Below are positions 51,319 through 60,700 of a DNA stretch of 64,000 bases, piece by piece. The DNA comes from Halospina denitrificans. GTDB taxonomy: Bacteria; Pseudomonadota; Gammaproteobacteria; Pseudomonadales; Oleiphilaceae. Both the position numbers and the translations under genes were made by a program. The stretch spans positions 62,001 to 126,000 of the forward strand of contig NZ_SOAX01000005.1 of assembly GCF_004364635.1 (NCBI RefSeq), written 5' to 3'. How positions within the stretch are numbered: the first letter of the stretch is position 1; every line of letters starts with the position of its first letter. The notes beneath the pieces are model-generated. The model made no database searches, was not told where the DNA came from, and saw only the letters and a program-made list of their open reading frames with translations.

Positions 51319-51936
51319 ATGCCCCAGATCGACCTTTCCCATATCCATGAATTCCTGCCTTGCCCCACGCCCTCGGCCTGGGTCGAGGCAGCCCTCCGGA
51401 ATCAGGATCTACTCCTGATCGATCACGCGCATTGTGAAAAGAAGGCCGCCTCAACGGCGTTGGGCCTGATGTATCGCTATATGGACGATCCGGATCTGCT
51501 GCATCGCATGTCGCGCCTGGCGCGGGAGGAGTTGCGGCATTTCGAGCAGGTTCTGTCGATTCTCCAGAAGCGTGGCATCGACTACGGCTACCTGTCGCCG
51601 GCCCGTTACGCCCAGGCACTGCACGCCCATGCCCGCAAGGAGGAGCCTGGCCGGCTGGTGGACACGCTCATCATCGGGGCCATTATCGAGGCGCGTTCCT
51701 GCGAGCGGTTTGCCGCCATTGCGCCCCATCTCGACGAGGAGCTTGCCGAGTTCTATAACTCGCTGCTGAAGTCTGAGGCCCGACACTACGAGGATTACCT
51801 GAGGCTGGCGGAGAAGGCTGCGGGTCATCGCGTCGAGGAACGCGTATCGGAATTGCTGGGGGTTGAGCGTGAGCAGATTGAGGGGCCGGATGAGGTGTTC
51901 CGGTTTCACAGCGGTGTGCCTGGTTTTGTTACCTAG
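51319..51936 (+). CDS. miaE: tRNA-(ms2io6A37) hydroxylase MiaE
   Basis: 205-residue diiron ferritin-fold monooxygenase that hydroxylates the isopentenyl group of ms2i6A37 in tRNA. Helical iron-ligand motifs are visible: DHAHCEKKAAS, REELRHFEQV, GAIIEARSCERF and SEARHYEDYL. Normal length. It is convergent with lpxH, with palindromic repeat copy 1 between the stops. Confidence 0.92.
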   Translation: MPQIDLSHIHEFLPCPTPSAWVEAALRNQDLLLIDHAHCEKKAASTALGLMYRYMDDPDLLHRMSRLAREELRHFEQVLSILQKRGIDYGYLSPARYAQALHAHARKEEPGRLVDTLIIGAIIEARSCERFAAIAPHLDEELAEFYNSLLKSEARHYEDYLRLAEKAAGHRVEERVSELLGVEREQIEGPDEVFRFHSGVPGFVT

Positions 51937-51953: not shown

Positions 51954-52063
51954 TCAGTGATCGGGGACGGCCACACGGGAAACGCTGTAAATACGTCCCT
52001 GTACGCTGCTCTTCCGCCATCCATGGCTCCAGAGCTTCCCGTGAGGCCGTCCCCGATCACTGA
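51954..52063 (+). repeat. Palindromic intergenic element, copy 1
   Basis: 110 bp. Arms 51954-51981 and 52036-52063 are complementary over 28 bp with one A-A mismatch. The core contains CGCTGTAAATACGTCC and CCGCCATCCATGGCTCC, shared with the copies at 55149, 56747 and 59130. It begins 17 nt after the miaE stop and ends 8 nt before the lpxH stop, between convergent genes. Confidence 0.95.
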
Positions 52064-52071
52064 GTTCAGGT

Positions 52072-52818
52072 TCAGGGTTGGGCGCCCAACTCGGTGAATG
52101 ACACTGAGAGCAGTTCGGGGGCATGGCCAGGTGCAGCTTCGATGTACCAGGCCTTCTCGTGCCAGTCTCCGGTCACATAGCGGGTGGCGGGCCGGCCATT
52201 GGCCGTCAGTTGATGGACTGCAGGCCTGTGGGTATGGCCATGGATGAGTCGCTGAACGCCCTGTGATTCCATGGCCGAGACCACTTCCTCCGGCGTGACA
52301 TCCATGATGGCCTGTTCCTTGCCCTGATTCTTGGCCTGACTGATCTCCCGCAGCTGGCGAGCAACCATCTGGCGCTCCGCCAAGGACCGCTTCAGGAAGG
52401 CCTGCTGCCACTCCGGATTACGCATTTTGGCCCGAAACTCCATGTATTCGGTGTCCGCCGTGCAGAGGCTGTCACCGTGCATCAGCAGTGTGGGCTCGCC
52501 GTAGAGGTCAATACAGGTCGGGTCGTCCAGCAGGGTTGCCCCGATCCGGTCGCAGAAATCCTGTCCGATGAGAAAATCCCGGTTGCCGTGCATCAGATAG
52601 AGGCGCGTACCTGTGGCATGGACCTGCTTCAGGGCCCCGGCCACTTCCTCCTGCAAGGGAGTTCGCTCGTCGTCCCCGATCCAGTTCTCGAAGAAATCGC
52701 CCAGTATGTAGAGCGCATCAATGTTCCGGGCGTATCCGTCCAGGAAGCCAAGGAAGGCGTCGGTGACATCCCGTCGGGATTCCTCCAGGTGCAGGTCCGC
52801 GATGAACCGGGTGGTCAT
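52072..52818 (-). CDS. lpxH: UDP-2,3-diacylglucosamine diphosphatase LpxH
   Basis: 248-residue metallophosphoesterase of lipid A synthesis, making lipid X from UDP-2,3-diacylglucosamine. The metal motifs are FIADLHL (Asp8, His10), LGDFFENWIGDD, MHGNRDFLIG, LMHGDSLC and IHGHTHRP. Length is normal. Its ATG overlaps the ppiB stop (ATGA), so it is translated with ppiB; this pair is common in gammaproteobacteria. Confidence 0.95.
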   Translation of the reverse strand: MTTRFIADLHLEESRRDVTDAFLGFLDGYARNIDALYILGDFFENWIGDDERTPLQEEVAGALKQVHATGTRLYLMHGNRDFLIGQDFCDRIGATLLDDPTCIDLYGEPTLLMHGDSLCTADTEYMEFRAKMRNPEWQQAFLKRSLAERQMVARQLREISQAKNQGKEQAIMDVTPEEVVSAMESQGVQRLIHGHTHRPAVHQLTANGRPATRYVTGDWHEKAWYIEAAPGHAPELLSVSFTELGAQP

Positions 52819-53324
52819 GATTCACCTTCGCCATCAACAAGGCGTGCCTCGTGGATAAGGATCTCATCCACCGGAACGTCGCGGTGCCCCGCGCGGGCGG
52901 TGGTAGGGACTTCGCGGATGCTGTCCACAACGTCCATGCCTTCAACAACCTGCCCGAAGACGCAGTAACCCCAGCCGTCCTGGGTTTTGGCGGTGTGGTC
53001 CAGGAAGCCGTTATCGTTCACATTGATGAAGAACTGGGACGAGGCTGTATGCGGGTTCATGGTGCGTGCCATGGCAATGGTTCCGCGCTTGTTGCTGAGG
53101 CCGTTGTCCGCCTCGTTCTGGATCGGGGCGCCGGGCCTGTGCGGCTCCATATCCGGCCCGAATCCGCCGGTCTGGATCATGAAGTTGCTGATGACCCGAT
53201 GGAAGATCAGTCCATCGTAGAAACCGTCGCGCACGTAACTCTTGAAATTCTCGGTGGTAATCGGGGCATTATCCGGGTCGGTTTCCAGCACAATGCGGCC
53301 CTTACTGGTTTCCAGAACGACCAT
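52815..53324 (-). CDS. ppiB: Peptidyl-prolyl cis-trans isomerase, cyclophilin type, cytoplasmic
   Basis: 169 residues, no signal peptide. ETSKGRIVLETDPDNAPITTENF, FHRVISNFMIQTGG (active-site Arg), TASSQFFINVNDN and FGQVVEGMDVVD are cyclophilin motifs. It accelerates proline isomerisation in folding proteins. The ATG at 53324 matches the family start. First gene of ppiB-lpxH, divergent from glnS. Confidence 0.94.
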   Translation of the reverse strand: MVVLETSKGRIVLETDPDNAPITTENFKSYVRDGFYDGLIFHRVISNFMIQTGGFGPDMEPHRPGAPIQNEADNGLSNKRGTIAMARTMNPHTASSQFFINVNDNGFLDHTAKTQDGWGYCVFGQVVEGMDVVDSIREVPTTARAGHRDVPVDEILIHEARLVDGEGES

Positions 53325-53454
53325 GAAACTATATCCTTTCGCATTCAAACGGGGCGTATTGTAAGGCATCCATCATCCGGGTGCATGAGATCCTTGCAAG
53401 CAGTGCGTATAATGGCCGATTTTCACATTCCACTCCGGCGGTGTCAGGAATTCT

Positions 53455-55131
53455 ATGAGCGCAGAAGCAAATCAGTCCGGTAACTTCATCAAAACCATCA
53501 TCCAGGACGACCTGGAGCAGGGCCGTCACGACCACATTGTGACCCGGTTTCCGCCGGAGCCCAACGGTTACCTGCACATCGGCCACGCCAAGTCCATCTT
53601 CGTGAATTTCGGGATGGCCGAAGCCTTTGGGGGTGACTGCACACTTCGCTTTGACGACACCAACCCGGAGAAGGAAAGCCAGGAATACATCGATTCCATC
53701 AAGCGGGATGTTGAGTGGCTGGGCTATGAATGGAAAGGCCCGGTCCGGTTTGCATCGGATTATTTTGACCGGCTCTATGAGTACGCTGAAGAGCTGATTC
53801 GCAACGGTCACGCTTACGTTTGCAGTCTGGATCCGGAAACGGCCGCTTCCTACCGGGGGACGCTCAAGGAAGCCGGGAAGAACAGCCCGTATCGGGATCG
53901 CTCGGTCGAGGAGAATCTCGACCTGTTCCGTCGCATGCGGGCCGGGGAGTTCGCCGAGGGTGAACACGCGCTGCGGGCGAAGATCGATATGGCCTCACCG
54001 AACATGAACCTGCGTGATCCCATCCTGTACCGGATCCGTTTCCTGCACCACCACCAGACCGGCGACAAGTGGTGCATCTATCCGATGTACGATTTCACCC
54101 ATCCGTTGTCCGACGCGGAAGAGGGGGTGACCCACTCGCTCTGTACCCTGGAGTTCGAGGATCACCGTCCGTTGTATGATTGGGTCCTCGAGAACGTGAC
54201 GCCGCCGTGCCGGCCTCGGCAGATTGAGTTCGCCCGGTTGAACGTGAACTACACCATCACCAGCAAGCGCAAGCTGATGCGCCTGGTGAACGAGGGCTAC
54301 GTGGACGCCTGGAATGACCCGCGCATGCCGACGCTCTCCGGGATGCGCCGGCGTGGCTTTACGCCGGCGTCCATTCGCCAGTTCTGCGATATGGTGGGCA
54401 TCAACAAGACCGGTGGAACCGTGGACCTGGGTATGCTGGAGCACGCCATTCGGGATGATCTGAACAAGCATGCACCCCGGGCCATGTGTGTGCTGCACCC
54501 GGTGAAGCTGGTGCTGACTAACTACCCGGAAGGACAGCGGGAAAGCCTGACCGTGCCGGTGCATCCCCAGGATGAATCCATGGGTACCCGGGAGGTGACC
54601 TGGACCCGGGAGCTCTATATTGACCAGAACGACTTCGCTGAAGTGCCGCCGCGTAAGTGGAAGCGGCTTTCCCCGGGTAATGCGGTGCGGCTGCGGGGAG
54701 GGTATGTGATTACCTGTACGGATTTTGTGCAGGATGATGAAGGCAATGTTACGGAGATTCATGCGGAATACGATCCGGCTACGCTTGGGGTCAATCCGGA
54801 GGGGTACAAGCCCAAGGGGGTGATTCACTGGGTGTCGGCGGAGACGGCGGTGGATCTGGAGTTGCGGCTCTATGACCGCCTGTTTGGGGTAGAGAATCCT
54901 GGAGCGGATAAGGAACGGGATTATATTGAGGATCTGAATCCGGAGAATCTGGTGACCCTTTATGGGTGCAAGGGCGAGGAGAATCTGGCGGAACCTCGGC
55001 GGGATATTGCTTACCAGTTTGAGCGGGAGGGGTATTTCTTCTTTGATCCCGAGGTGAGTGATGGGGATCGGATTGTTCTGAATCGGACCGTGACGTTGCG
55101 GGATTCCTGGGCCAAGGTCAGTGGTCAGTAG
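53455..55131 (+). CDS. glnS: Glutamine--tRNA ligase
   Basis: 558-residue class I synthetase. HIGH motif in [20 protein letters not shown]-like [11 protein letters not shown], then the two-barrel anticodon domain ending [10 protein letters not shown]. Charges tRNA-Gln directly. The last 400 or so bases use noticeably more GGG, GAT and AAT codons than the first part. It ends 17 nt before palindromic element copy 2. Confidence 0.97.
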
Positions 55132-55148
55132 TCTGGTAGTGTCGTGCG

Positions 55149-55263
55149 GGATCAGCGACCGGGGAGGACTTTCCGGGAATCGCTGTGAATACGTCCCTGT
55201 ACGCTGCCCTCCGCCATCCATGGCTCCGGAGCTTCCCGGAAAGTCCTCCCCGGCCGCTGATCC
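55149..55263 (+). repeat. Palindromic intergenic element, copy 2
   Basis: 115 bp. Arms 55149-55179 and 55233-55263 pair over 31 bp with a single mismatch. Core contains CGCTGTGAATACGTCC and CCGCCATCCATGGCTCC. It lies between glnS and cysS, ending 44 nt before the cysS start. Its core is nearly identical to copy 3 in the opposite orientation. Confidence 0.95.
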
Positions 55264-55307
55264 TCCGGCTACGGGGTTGGTTAATCATGTCAGGAAATGG
55301 AGATAGT

Positions 55308-56687
55308 GTGATCCAGCTATACAGTACGCTCAGTCGCAAAAAGGAAACTTTCCAGCCGATTGAACCAGGGAAGGTTGGGATCTATGTGTGCGGCATGACG
55401 GTGTATGATTACTGTCATCTGGGCCACGCACGGGTACTGGTGGCGTTTGATGTGATCACGCGCTATTTCCGGCATCGGGGCTACGACGTTCATTATGTGC
55501 GTAACATCACCGATGTGGACGACAAGATACTGGATCGTGCGCGGGAGAACGGTGAGGATTTTCATGTGCTCACTGACCGCATGATCGAAGCCATGCACGT
55601 GGATGAGGGGGCGCTCGGGGTGTTGCGGCCGAACGAAGAGCCGCGCGCTACCGAGTACATGGACGAGATGATCGACATGATCCGGACCCTGGTGGATAAG
55701 GGGCATGCGTATCCGGCGGACAATGGGGATGTTTACTTTGCCGTCTCGACCTTTGATGACTACGGCAAGCTGAGCCGGAAGAAGCTGGAGGATCTGGTTG
55801 CCGGTGCCCGGGTTGAGGTTCAGGAAGCCAAGGCCAGTCCGGCGGATTTCGTGCTCTGGAAATCCGCAAAGCCCGGCGAGGTCAGCTGGCCGTCGCCCTG
55901 GGGCGAGGGCCGGCCCGGCTGGCACATCGAGTGCTCCGCTATGTCCCGCTCCCGACTCGGGCGCACCTTCGACATCCATGGCGGCGGCCCGGACCTGATG
56001 TTCCCGCACCACGAGAACGAGATCGCCCAGTCCGAGTGCGCCCATGAGCAGCCGTTCGTGAACTACTGGATGCACGCCGGTGCGGTGCGGGTGAACCACG
56101 AAAAGATGTCCAAGTCCCTGGGCAACTTCTTCACCATCCGCGACATCCTCCAGGAACACGACCCGGAAGTGGTGCGCTATTTCCTGATCTCCAGCCACTA
56201 CCGCAGCCAGATCGACTACACCCCGGACAGCCTCGCGGATGCGAGGTCCGCACTGATGAAGTTCTACCAGGCCCTGGATGGTGTGGAGCCCGCAAAGGAC
56301 CCGGCAGAAACCGAGCACGACCAGCGCTTCATGGCTGCCATGGACGACGACTTCAACACTGTCGAAGCCACAGCGGTACTGCACGCGGTCACGGCAGAAC
56401 TTAACCGGTGCAAGAAAGCGGGCGAAACCGAACAGTCCAGCGCCATGGCAGGTGTTCTCAAACGTCTTGGCGGTGTGCTGGGCGTTCTCGAACGTGAACC
56501 GGCTTCCTTCCTCCAGGCCGACACCGGCGACCTGAATGCGGACCGCATTGAAGGGCTTATCGAAGAGCGGCGTCAGGCCAAGAAAAACAAGGACTTCGGT
56601 GAAGCTGATCGCATTCGGGATGAACTCCTGGAGCAGGGTATCGTTCTAGAAGACAGCCGGGAAGGAACCACCTGGCGACGCGAGTAA
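55308..56687 (+). CDS. cysS: Cysteine--tRNA ligase
   Basis: 459-residue class I synthetase. [18 protein letters not shown] carries the zinc Cys and HIGH-type motif; HIECSAMS and [14 protein letters not shown] supply zinc ligands and [11 protein letters not shown] is the KMSKS loop. The GTG at 55308, five nt after GGAG, aligns with the E. coli start; the ATG at 55287 is an alternative. A longer reading would run through the repeat and is rejected. Codon use changes near 55,870 within the gene. Bracketed by inverted copies 2 and 3 of the palindromic element. Confidence 0.95.
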
Positions 56688-56746
56688 ACCACTCGGCCTG
56701 TAAATTCAGAGCTAGTTTGCCGTAGAATACGCGCACGAATTTAGAA

Positions 56747-56853
56747 GGCGGGTGGGGGAGCCCGTTCCGGGAAGCTCCGGAGCCATGGATGGCGGAGGGC
56801 AGCGTACACGGACGTATTCACAGCGATTCCCGGAACGGGCTCCCCCACCCGCC
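56747..56853 (-). repeat. Palindromic intergenic element, copy 3 (inverted)
   Basis: 107 bp. Arms 56747-56773 and 56827-56853 are perfectly complementary over 27 bp. The core is in the reverse orientation (GGAGCCATGGATGGCGG then GGACGTATTCACAGCG). It lies 59 nt after cysS and ends 47 nt before the glcB ATG. Confidence 0.95.
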
Positions 56854-56900
56854 AAAGCACCAAACCCGAGATTTACCAAAAGCAATCCGAGGCAAACAAC

Positions 56901-59081
56901 ATGACGGAACGCGTGAACGCAGGGGGCCTGCAGGTCGCCCGACTCCTTTACGACTTCATCAACAACGAAGCCATCCCCGGCACCGGCGTCGACCAGGACC
57001 ACTTCTGGAACGAATTCGGCCGCATCGTCGCCGACATGGCGCCGCGCAACCGCGACCTCCTCAAGTTCCGGGAAGACCTGCAGGCCAAGATCGACAACTG
57101 GCACCGCGAAAACAAGGGCCAGCCCATCGATCTGGAGAGCTACAAAGGCTTCCTCAAGGACATCGGCTACCTCAAGCCGGAAGGCGAGGATTTCACCGCC
57201 ACCACCGCCAACGTCGACGACGAGATCGCGCGGGTCGCCGGCCCCCAGCTGGTCGTGCCAATCTCCAACGCACGTTTCGCGCTGAACGCCGCCAACGCCC
57301 GCTGGGGCAGCCTCTACGACGCTGTCTACGGCTCCGACATCATCCCGGAAGAGGGCGGCGCGGACAAAGGCCCCGGTTACAACCCGGTTCGCGGCGAAAA
57401 GGTCATTGCCTACGCCCGTGGCGTTCTCGATGAATCCGCACCGCTGGCCCAGGGCAGCCACAGCGACTCCATCCTGTACCGCGTCGATGGCGGCAAGCTG
57501 GTCGTGAAGCTCAAGGACGGTTCCGAAACCGGTCTGAAGGATCCGGCCCAGTTCGTCGGCTACAAGGGCAGCGAGTCCGAGCCCGAATCCGTACTGCTGG
57601 TGCGCAACGGCATGCACCTGGAAATCCAGGTCGACGCCAGCCATCCGATCGGCCAGGACGACCCGGCGCACGTCAAGGACGTGGCCACGGAATCCGCCCT
57701 GACCACGATCATGGACTGCGAGGACTCGGTTGCGGCGGTTGATGCCGACGATAAGACCGGCGTCTACCGCAACTGGCTGGGCCTGATGAAGGGCAGCCTC
57801 GAGGAGAGCTTCGAGAAGGGCGGCAAGACCGTTACCCGTAAGATGAACGCCGACCGCGATTACACCGGTGCCGATGGCAAGCCGCTGAGCCTCCAGGGCC
57901 GCAGCCTGATGCTGGTGCGCAACGTGGGCCACCTGATGACCAATGACGCCATCCTGGACAGCGACGGCAACGAAGTGCCCGAGGGCATCATGGACGGCAT
58001 GGTCACTTCCCTGATCGCCATCCACGACCTCAAGGGCAATAGCAAGGTCGCCAATAGCCGCACCGGCAGCGTCTACATCGTGAAGCCCAAGATGCACGGC
58101 CCGGAAGAAGTGGCGTTCACCAACGAGCTCTTCGGCCGCGTCGAGGACGCCCTGGGCATCGCCCGCAACACCCTGAAGGTTGGTGTTATGGACGAGGAGC
58201 GCCGGACCACCGTCAACCTCAAGGAATGCATCCGCGAGGCGAAGGACCGGATCATCTTCATCAACACCGGCTTCCTGGACCGCACCGGCGACGAGATCCA
58301 CACCAGCATGGAAGCCGGCCCCGTGATCCGTAAGGGCGAGATGAAGCAGGCGCCCTGGATGACCAGCTACGAGGATTGGAACGTGGACATCGGCCTGGAA
58401 ACCGGCCTCAAGGGCCGCGCCCAGATCGGCAAGGGCATGTGGCCCATGCCGGACAAGCTGGCGGCCATGATGGAAGCGAAGATCAGTCATCCCAAGGCCG
58501 GCGCTAACTGCGCCTGGGTCCCATCACCCACGGCGGCAACGCTGCACGCCATCCACTATCACCAGGTCAACGTGATGGCGGTCCAGGACGAACTGGCCAA
58601 GCGCGAGCGCGCCAGCCTGGACAACATCCTGACGATCCCGCTGATGAAGGATCCCAAGTCCCTCAGCCAGGACGAGATCAAGCAGGAGCTAGATAACAAC
58701 GCCCAGGGCATCCTCGGCTACGTCGTGCGCTGGATCGAGCAGGGCGTGGGTTGTTCCAAGGTGCCGGACATCAACGATGTGGGGCTGATGGAGGACCGCG
58801 CCACCCTGCGGATCGCCTCCCAGCTGCTGTGCAACTGGCTGTACCACGGCATCTGCACGGAAGAGCAGGTGATGGAGACGCTCAAGCGCATGGCGAAGGT
58901 TGTGGACCGTCAGAACGAGGGCGACCCGAGTTACATCCCCATGGCGGATGATTTCGAAGGTAACGTGGCCTTCCAGGCAGCCTGCGACCTGATCTTCAAG
59001 GGTCGCGAGCAGCCCAGTGGTTACACGGAGCCGCTGCTCCATGCCTACCGCCGTAAGGCCAAGGCTAAATACGGCCAGTAA
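56901..59081 (+). CDS. glcB: Malate synthase G
   Basis: 726-residue enzyme condensing glyoxylate and acetyl-CoA to malate in the glyoxylate cycle. Typical segments: [36 protein letters not shown] (catalytic Asp/Glu region), [16 protein letters not shown] and [15 protein letters not shown]. Length matches the monomeric G isoform. Codons end in C much more often than in glnS upstream. A strong terminator follows 5 nt after the stop, then palindromic element copy 4. Confidence 0.97.
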
Positions 59082-59085
59082 ACAG

Positions 59086-59111
59086 AAAACCCCGCTTCGG
59101 CGGGGTTTTTT
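59086..59111 (+). terminator. Rho-independent terminator after glcB
   Basis: AAAACCCCGC (59086-59095), TTCG tetraloop, GCGGGGTTTT (59100-59109) and a further T run. Confidence 0.9.
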
Positions 59112-59129
59112 ATTGGCAGGATGCCAGAG

Positions 59130-59254
59130 GTTGCGAAGGAGGGATCGGGGACCGCTTTCAGGGATACGCTGTGAATACGTCCCTGTACGCTTGCTTCCGC
59201 CATCCATGGCTCCAGACAATCCCGGAAAGCGGTCCCCGATCCCTCCTTCGCAAC
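59130..59254 (+). repeat. Palindromic intergenic element, copy 4
   Basis: 125 bp. Arms 59130-59159 and 59225-59254 are perfectly complementary over 30 bp, extended by GGGAT/ATCCC after one mismatch. Core contains CGCTGTGAATACGTCC and CCGCCATCCATGGCTCC. It ends 10 nt before the folD stop, between convergent glcB and folD. Confidence 0.95.
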
Positions 59255-60292: not shown

Positions 60293-60369
60293 CGGGGTAT
60301 AGCGCAGTCTGGTAGCGCGCCTGCTTTGGGAGCAGGATGTCGGGAGTTCGAATCTCTCTACCCCGACCA
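60293..60369 (+). tRNA. tRNA-Pro (TGG)
   Basis: 77-nt cloverleaf: acceptor CGGGGTA/TACCCCG, anticodon stem CCTGC/GCAGG with loop TTTGGGA (anticodon TGG), T-loop TTCGAAT, CCA encoded. Confidence 0.97.
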
Positions 60370-60384
60370 GACATTATACAGAAT

Positions 60385-60461
60385 GCGCCCGTAGCTCAGC
60401 TGGATAGAGCACCGGCCTTCTAAGCCGTAGGTCGTAGGTTCAAGTCCTACCGGGCGCGCCA
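60385..60461 (+). tRNA. tRNA-Arg (TCT)
   Basis: 77-nt cloverleaf: acceptor GCGCCCG/CGGGCGC, loop CTTCTAA with anticodon TCT, CCA encoded. The top pair of the anticodon stem (27-43, at 60412 and 60428) is a C-T mismatch; the remaining four pairs are canonical. Confidence 0.95.
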
Positions 60462-60493
60462 ACCTTGACGACGGCAATGGTGAAGTTTTTAGT

Positions 60494-60570
60494 GGTGGAC
60501 GTAGCTCAGTTGGTAGAGCTCAGGATTGTGACTCCTGCGGTCGAGGGTTCGATCCCCTTCGTCCACCCCA
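60494..60570 (+). tRNA. tRNA-His (GTG)
   Basis: 77 nt including the extra 5' G(-1) that opposes discriminator C73. Acceptor GTGGACG/CGTCCAC, anticodon stem CAGGA/TCCTG with loop TTGTGAC (anticodon GTG), CCA encoded. Confidence 0.97.
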
Positions 60571-60615
60571 TTTTCCAGATTCCAGCGTTCCGGATAATGA
60601 CCCTTCCAATGACGT

Positions 60616-60700
60616 GCGAAAGTGGCGGAACTGGTAGACGCGCTGGATTTAGGTTCCAGTGGGGCAACCCGTGAGAGTTCGAGTCTCTCCTTTCGCACCA
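60616..60700 (+). tRNA. tRNA-Leu (TAG)
   Basis: 85-nt class II tRNA with a long variable arm. Acceptor GCGAAAG/CTTTCGC, anticodon loop TTTAGGT (anticodon TAG), T-loop TTCGAGT, CCA encoded. Confidence 0.97.

Follow-up and report, generated by a model that had tools for sequence, protein, structure and literature searches.

A stretch of 64 kb of the Halospina denitrificans genome (the window; the genome itself, G000, comprises 3.32 Mb in 16 contigs) carries four related palindromes within 7.3 kb, and the question is what kind of element they are and what their structure might serve. Each is 107–125 bp long and consists of a conserved core of ~53 nt between complementary arms of 27–36 bp. An earlier note on this DNA took them for a dispersed family of intergenic palindromes, matched them to no recognised family and saw a resemblance to ERIC or BIME-type repeats. 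Judged by their core, they are YPAL-type miniature, non-autonomous, intergenic mobile repeats. On one strand, here called the GGA strand, the core folds into two hairpins with A-N-G-G-A-N loops (the complementary strand is called the TCC strand), and we consider it moderately probable that the RNA of this insertion is a two-site ligand of CsrA.

The repeat in the window, the genome and the class

Copies 1 (51954–52063), 2 (55149–55263) and 4 (59130–59254) are in + orientation, with the TCC core on the + strand; in copy 1, for instance, a GGA-strand RNA would be read from the − strand. Copy 3 (56747–56853) is inverted, with the TCC core on the − strand and the GGA strand on the + strand. The arms are 91% complementary in copy 1 (51954–51987/52030–52063), 97% in copy 2 (55149–55179/55233–55263), 100% in copy 3 (56747–56773/56827–56853) and 97% in copy 4 (59130–59165/59219–59254). 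Hairpin 1 reads UAC-AGGGAC-GUA in copies 1 (51992–52003, −), 2 (55190–55201, −) and 4 (59176–59187, −), and UAC-ACGGAC-GUA in copy 3 (56805–56816, +). Hairpin 2 reads GCC-AUGGAU-GGC in all four (52016–52027, −; 55213–55224, −; 56782–56793, +; 59199–59210, −). Re-scanning the window returned the four copies with the coordinates and orientations of the earlier note, all with the shared core inside complementary arms. The absence of a further copy from the rest of the window was likewise confirmed: the whole 64 kb, scanned with a 25-nt half of the core at up to 6 substitutions, gave just four places. Shorter core 15- and 17-mers produced extra weak matches elsewhere in the window, with 3–4 mismatches.

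The assignment to YPAL/RU-2 is made on the core and the architecture. The GCC-ANGGAT-GGC and TACANGGAYGTA hairpins are present in the YPAL order, and the long outer stem, the intergenic location and the multicopy state are all found. The arms differ by eye from those of the Yersinia copies, and no arm or terminal sequence in common with these (a unit of ~168 bp) was found. The statement that the repeat belongs to no recognised family therefore had to be revised, as its core is that of YPAL/RU-2 in the table of PMC2759123 and the Rfam model Ysr224 matches three enterobacterial copies of the element.

Copy number was determined over the whole genome. Allowing up to 3 mismatches, the 17-mer AATACGTCCCTGTACGC matched G000 at 96 places, versus 4 for the reversed control, and plain chance was rejected on this count. 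The 320,698 bases around these places (window included) gave 99 matches to a regular expression: 89 full copies, each with the two hairpins, and 10 truncated, expanded or chance matches that were not counted; 89 is a lower bound, with one further copy listed at C1:543938. With genes called by a simple custom gene caller, 88 of the 89 are located in gaps between genes and the remaining one overlaps a gene, in line with the dispersed intergenic family that the earlier note proposed. The gaps are tandem in 46 cases, convergent in 26 and divergent in 16.

Clustering of four copies in 7.3 kb is unremarkable and needs no explanation, because uniform placement of 89 copies put at least four within that distance in 382 of 5000 draws (p ~0.08). 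The proximity of the four copies had been the argument for their origin by one local duplication. With at least 89 copies genome-wide, arms that differ from copy to copy and clustering that is not exceptional, this origin was rejected and has virtually no probability left. The earlier note had set its proposal against two outcomes, an already named family and a single local duplication; a named relative, YPAL, does exist, and origin by one local duplication is refuted.

Identity with REP/BIME or ERIC elements moved by a RAYT draws on the size of the element, its intergenic position and the existence of some paired copies. The earlier note had reported no RAYT gene, and this holds for the genome: RAYT-type transposases, sought as Y1_Tnp (PF01797), gave no match in G000, G001, G002 or G003, and two in G004. 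In addition, REPs are described as 20–40 bp long in the consulted text of PMC3733652, and the core is unlike the ERIC-type sequence given in PMC2759123, compared by eye only. This identity was rejected, the host G000 being free of Y1_Tnp matches, and we regard it as nearly excluded.

Two further observations concern the arrangement of the copies. Eight pairs in G000 lie less than 700 bp apart; in seven of them a TCC+ copy is followed by a TCC− copy at 192–646 bp, with the GGA strands pointing apart, and similar pairs are present in G001, G003, G004 and G015. In the TCC frame, GTGC occurs in the left flank of 50 of the 89 G000 copies versus 14.5 expected, often 33–37 nt from the inner end of the arm, and in the right flank of 20 copies versus 10.2 expected.

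The distribution was assessed with the exact pattern GCCANGGATGGC-N(3–11)-SCNTACANGGAYGTA, which has 79 places in G000, 2–23 in each of four other genomes of the genus and 0–31 in each of the Marinobacter-group genomes (g12); it is present in 32 of 97 genomes, G000 included. Among 398 Pseudomonadota genomes it was found in 15 of 137 Gammaproteobacteria (that of G000 included) and in none of 261 outside the class. At least 119 stretches from named organisms matched, and those listed include Marinobacter, Stenotrophomonas, Shewanella, Oceanisphaera, Halopseudomonas, Pectobacterium and Yersinia similis. By its core pattern, the YPAL-type family is spread through the Gammaproteobacteria, which is new with respect to the Yersinia/Erwinia range given in the sources consulted. 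A phage carrier was not found, viral contigs giving one pattern match only. One genome (G346, C1:94454–95398) carries five cores in one orientation at ~228 bp spacing, a tandem array of the element.

Arm pairing, the constrained strand and turnover

The arms combine near-free sequence with kept pairing. Over the 89 G000 copies, arm positions 1–28 pair at 90–100%, and pairing drops to 78% at position 29 and 52% at position 30; positions 12–28 except 17–18 carry only 0.17–0.66 bit. The conserved letters inside the arms are GGG at 3–5 and GG at 17–18. In 24 of the 89 copies the palindrome extends to 34–53 bp, past the usual edge at 28–30 bp into the flanking DNA. Covariation was assessed in an alignment of 23 G000 copies (every second of the 83 distinct copies gave 42, of which 24 were 109 nt long; L021 was omitted). 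In this alignment 26 of 28 arm pairs were changed on both sides, and 99.9% of the cells were paired; shuffles gave 73.0% and slid controls no more than 49% (score 0.697 versus 0.141). At two Marinobacter sites inherited across species, A and B, the core is nearly unchanged and the arms are altered by paired substitutions; pairwise arm differences were both-sided rather than one-sided in ratios of 605:97 at site A and 2694:248 at site B. Copying of the arms from the target at insertion was rejected, since empty site B alleles do not contain the outer arm GAGCCGGTG and, in inherited copies, both arms have changed while the copy stayed at its site.

The mispairs that remain in the arms were used to read the folded strand. 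A strand-neutral palindrome must give A-C and G-T mispairs equally, and an A-C mispair in the TCC frame is a G-U pair in the RNA of the GGA strand. Wobbles of any kind are few. Among the elements from outside G000, 181 of 208 were used (those with at least 20/25 Watson-Crick pairs; 27 were dropped), and mispairs giving G-U on the GGA strand alone outnumbered those giving G-U on the TCC strand alone by 110:12 (p 5e-21). The ratio was 73:10 in 129 non-redundant elements and 12:3 in the 89 G000 copies (p 0.035; 0.057 without the copies having more than 3 mispairs). By group it was 63:9, 23:1, 21:2 and 3:0, the last being the same-genus loci alone, too few to test, and at the inherited sites it was 9:0 (A, 13 of 14 element rows) and 13:1 (B, 25 of 28 element rows). 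The GGA-loop strand tolerates the G-U wobble and is therefore the folded strand; by mispair asymmetry, the GGA strand is the constrained one. The skew is compatible with folded RNA or folded single-strand DNA of this strand. A similar skew would be expected from transcription-coupled deamination of the GGA strand, in which case this strand would again be the RNA-like one. The arms are in this respect a rare natural set, with near-free sequence, near-perfect complementarity and a functional strand that can be read from the mispairs alone.

Insertion and turnover are visible at orthologous sites. None of the four window sites is occupied in G001 or G003, two genomes of the same genus (nor, by alignment gaps, in G004), so that the empty sites which the earlier note proposed to look for do exist. 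On contig C5, which has 12 full copies, 10 of the 11 copies compared are without the element at the orthologous gap in G001/G003; the eleventh is common to G000, G001 and G003; its core is retained, in expanded form in G001, and its arms have been replaced. Marinobacter site B (L218:6015–6130 and orthologues) was followed in 35 rows including the query, of which 22 are GGA+, 7 TCC+ and 6 empty. The orientations are scattered on the tree of the flanks, with 7 changes between GGA+ and TCC+, and a single clade holding the six TCC+ rows other than L288 was rejected (p-AU 0.00025). The same flanking genes with opposite orientation in different species are suggestive of flipping in place, by inversion inside the palindrome. 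The flanks past the arms also differ between species, and exchange between species or separate insertions are a possible source of the orientation change; L288, one of the seven TCC+ cases, looks like an independent insertion.

These data bear on a reading at the level of DNA, in which a single-strand or cruciform hairpin would serve a hypothetical transposase or recombinase and the arms would be kept by template switching in the palindrome rather than by selection on RNA. Opposite orientations at site B, the scarcity of wobbles, the palindromes of at least 34 bp that reach into the flank and a lack of gene-strand bias (see below) would all fit it, and the mispair test is compatible with a GGA-strand hairpin of single-strand DNA. 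A strand-neutral palindrome, however, requires the two mispair classes at 1:1, and the observed skew of 110:12 holds also at the inherited sites A and B; moreover, with L288 apparently inserted independently, exchange between species could explain the other TCC+ cases. We consider this reading quite improbable.

The loops as candidate CsrA sites

The loops were sampled from 1.96 Mb of fetched DNA (overlaps included) by searching for inverted repeats of at least 17/18 pairs with 40–139 nt between them, so that elements were chosen by their arms and not by their loops. The search gave 310 palindromes, of which 290, with a core by loose patterns, were counted. The other 20 were dropped for want of the core pattern, at least four of these (L043:6650, L086, L154 and L222) being by eye the same element with changed stems or expanded. 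The 290 cores contain 565 ANGGAN loops on 3-bp stems, and the feature of a CsrA-type RNA, at least two A-N-GGA hairpin loops per RNA, is present in this sense. Position 1 of the hexaloops is A in 352 of 364; the following G, G and A stand at 98, 100 and 97%, partly by selection, as only hexaloops with two or more of the GGA letters were taken. In the hexaloops, positions 2 and 6 vary freely. The longer consensus of RsmE/CsrA sites is A/U-CANGGANG-U/A, and we take the two free positions of the hexaloop to be the free positions of this consensus. The closing stems vary by paired substitutions (UAC/GUA, CAC/GUG, CCC/GGG, GCC/GGC, GGC/GCC). A(N)GGA is the CsrA motif given in the available text of PMC5864184. 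G000 has one CsrA match, and CsrA is present in 14/14 element-bearing genomes examined, versus 13/14 element-free gammaproteobacteria and 2/14 genomes outside the class.

In some copies the loops themselves are enlarged. Expanded copies (L042, L043, L072, L273 and the G001 orthologue of C5:205734) carry a module of ~75–82 nt inserted in the ANGG|A loop of hairpin 1 or 2; it has three hairpins with variable but complementary stems and several GGA loops, like a nested element.

Under the CsrA reading, each copy, when transcribed from the GGA strand, would form one long stem (~29 bp) of near-free sequence that holds up two small hairpins with A-N-G-G-A-N hexaloops, and we infer that the two hexaloops of one copy would bind one dimer of CsrA (RsmA). 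Wherever a dispersed copy is part of a transcript, it could then serve CsrA as a two-site ligand, and the copies as a whole could form a diffuse sponge.

Several results weigh against this reading. The main weakness is the lack of a strand preference with respect to genes: tandem gaps hold 29 GGA-sense and 17 antisense copies in G000, 31 and 32 in the named genomes, and 60 and 49 when pooled (p 0.34). A cis-acting site that needs the GGA orientation behind genes is not supported by this count. Sixteen of the 89 G000 copies stand in divergent gaps. When hairpins were picked greedily, two GGA hexaloops were recovered in only 88 of the 290 cores; 169 cores gave one and 33 gave none, the low two-loop count arising because other hairpins compete on paper. 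The co-occurrence of CsrA with the element is confounded by phylogeny. Other parts of the core are conserved as strongly as the loops and are not explained by CsrA, and the Rfam model of the Yersinia form, Ysr224, is drawn on the TCC strand, opposite to the GGA strand.

The absence of a gene-strand preference means either that both orientations serve or that the RNA has its role for the element itself and not for the genes beside it. If both orientations serve, readthrough from convergent neighbours, transcription of the element's own or a role in titration could account for it.

The same counts bear on a proposal made for YPAL in Yersinia, that of a generic mobile 3'-end stem-loop which lands behind genes and alters mRNA stability or termination, the loops serving mobility or being neutral and CsrA having no part. 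Elements in named genomes are indeed overrepresented in convergent gaps and scarce in divergent ones (24 and 10 of the 97 classable among 127, versus 43 and 92 of 344 gaps of at least 100 nt), and YPAL is co-expressed with upstream genes and perhaps affects transcript stability, according to the portion of PMC2229807 at hand. This proposal predicts neither A.GGA. hexaloops that vary only at the two CsrA-free positions while their stems change, nor a one-strand G-U rule, about half of the tandem copies being antisense to their neighbours; and divergent gaps are not avoided in G000. We hold it to be unlikely, and prefer the CsrA ligand.

A further step, which we put forward as a tentative possibility, is that the repeat has spread selfishly into a genome-wide sponge. 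About 90 two-site CsrA ligands in one genome (up to 31 exact-pattern copies per Marinobacter-group genome) would have CsrA activity set partly by readthrough into the repeats; the RNA fold would be kept while the arms drift, copies turn over and switch orientation at given sites, and expanded copies add GGA hairpins. A text search of the accessible literature returned no published work joining CsrA with YPAL or such repeats. Should one core extend across the Gammaproteobacteria and serve as a two-site CsrA ligand, a class of mobile repeats would have a defined molecular partner, and its function could be put to experimental test.

The gene surroundings of the window copies are as follows. Copy 1 lies between a MiaE-like gene (+, ending at 51936; a profile match below the curated cut-off) and lpxH (−), copy 2 between glnS and cysS (both +), copy 3 between cysS and the gene for malate synthase G (both +), and copy 4 between the latter and folD (−). 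Four tRNA genes (Rfam tRNA) occupy 60293–60697, between folD and tig, which was named by eye.

Comparison with known systems

The closest known system is YPAL/RU-2. RU-2 of Yersinia pestis, in the table of PMC2759123, has the same two hairpins in the same order, and copies from Yersinia similis, Samsonia and Pectobacterium fold into the same two hairpins. The outer stem, the intergenic location and the empty sites are also shared. YPAL target duplications measure 3–26 bp, with targets in or near dyad symmetry (PMC2229807, as far as its text was available); at Marinobacter site B some filled rows have CAGGCCCGTA and CAGGCCGGTA on the two sides (by eye against the empty sites; the C5 sites are too diverged). 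The YPAL model is fitted by 101 sequences in Y. pestis in the consulted part of PMC2267715, and the available passages of the reviews of this element name no transposase. Unlike YPAL, the Halospina arms vary from copy to copy and stay complementary, the palindrome is 107–125 bp rather than ~168 bp, and the host lies outside the Enterobacterales, with 79 exact-pattern matches in G000 versus at most 31 in 96 relatives. In the sources at hand YPAL is described from Yersinia and Erwinia only, with a possible effect on mRNA stability.

Ysr224 (Yersinia sRNA 224; RF02770) models this element in Yersinia similis, Samsonia and Pectobacterium, and reaches scores of 129.9, 84.7 and 73.3 bits (cut-off 70) in three enterobacterial copies; it reaches 18.3 bits in the window, below that cut-off. 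The RNA is multi-copy and expressed in Y. ruckeri, according to the accessible text of PMC12112432.

GTAG and CGTC REPs are likewise dispersed palindromes, found chiefly between unidirectional and convergent genes (PMC3733652, in the part consulted); they differ in being short single hairpins, and G000 has no match to their transposase domain.

TwoAYGGAY (RF01731) is a two-loop RNA that was proposed as a CsrA ligand on grounds of this kind; its outer stem is poorly conserved and bears two loops that match the CsrA type. The available text of PMC4333381, from which this is taken, does not describe it as a dispersed repeat. Its model scores 30.9 bits on copy 4 (− strand), below the gathering score of 43, and no match at the cut-off occurs in 18 other loci. 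The sponge RNAs CsrB and RsmX/Y/Z carry several A(N)GGA sites and are thought to sequester CsrA (PMC5864184, same passage). These are sRNA genes with multiple sites, whereas the Halospina elements are dispersed insertions that would each offer two.

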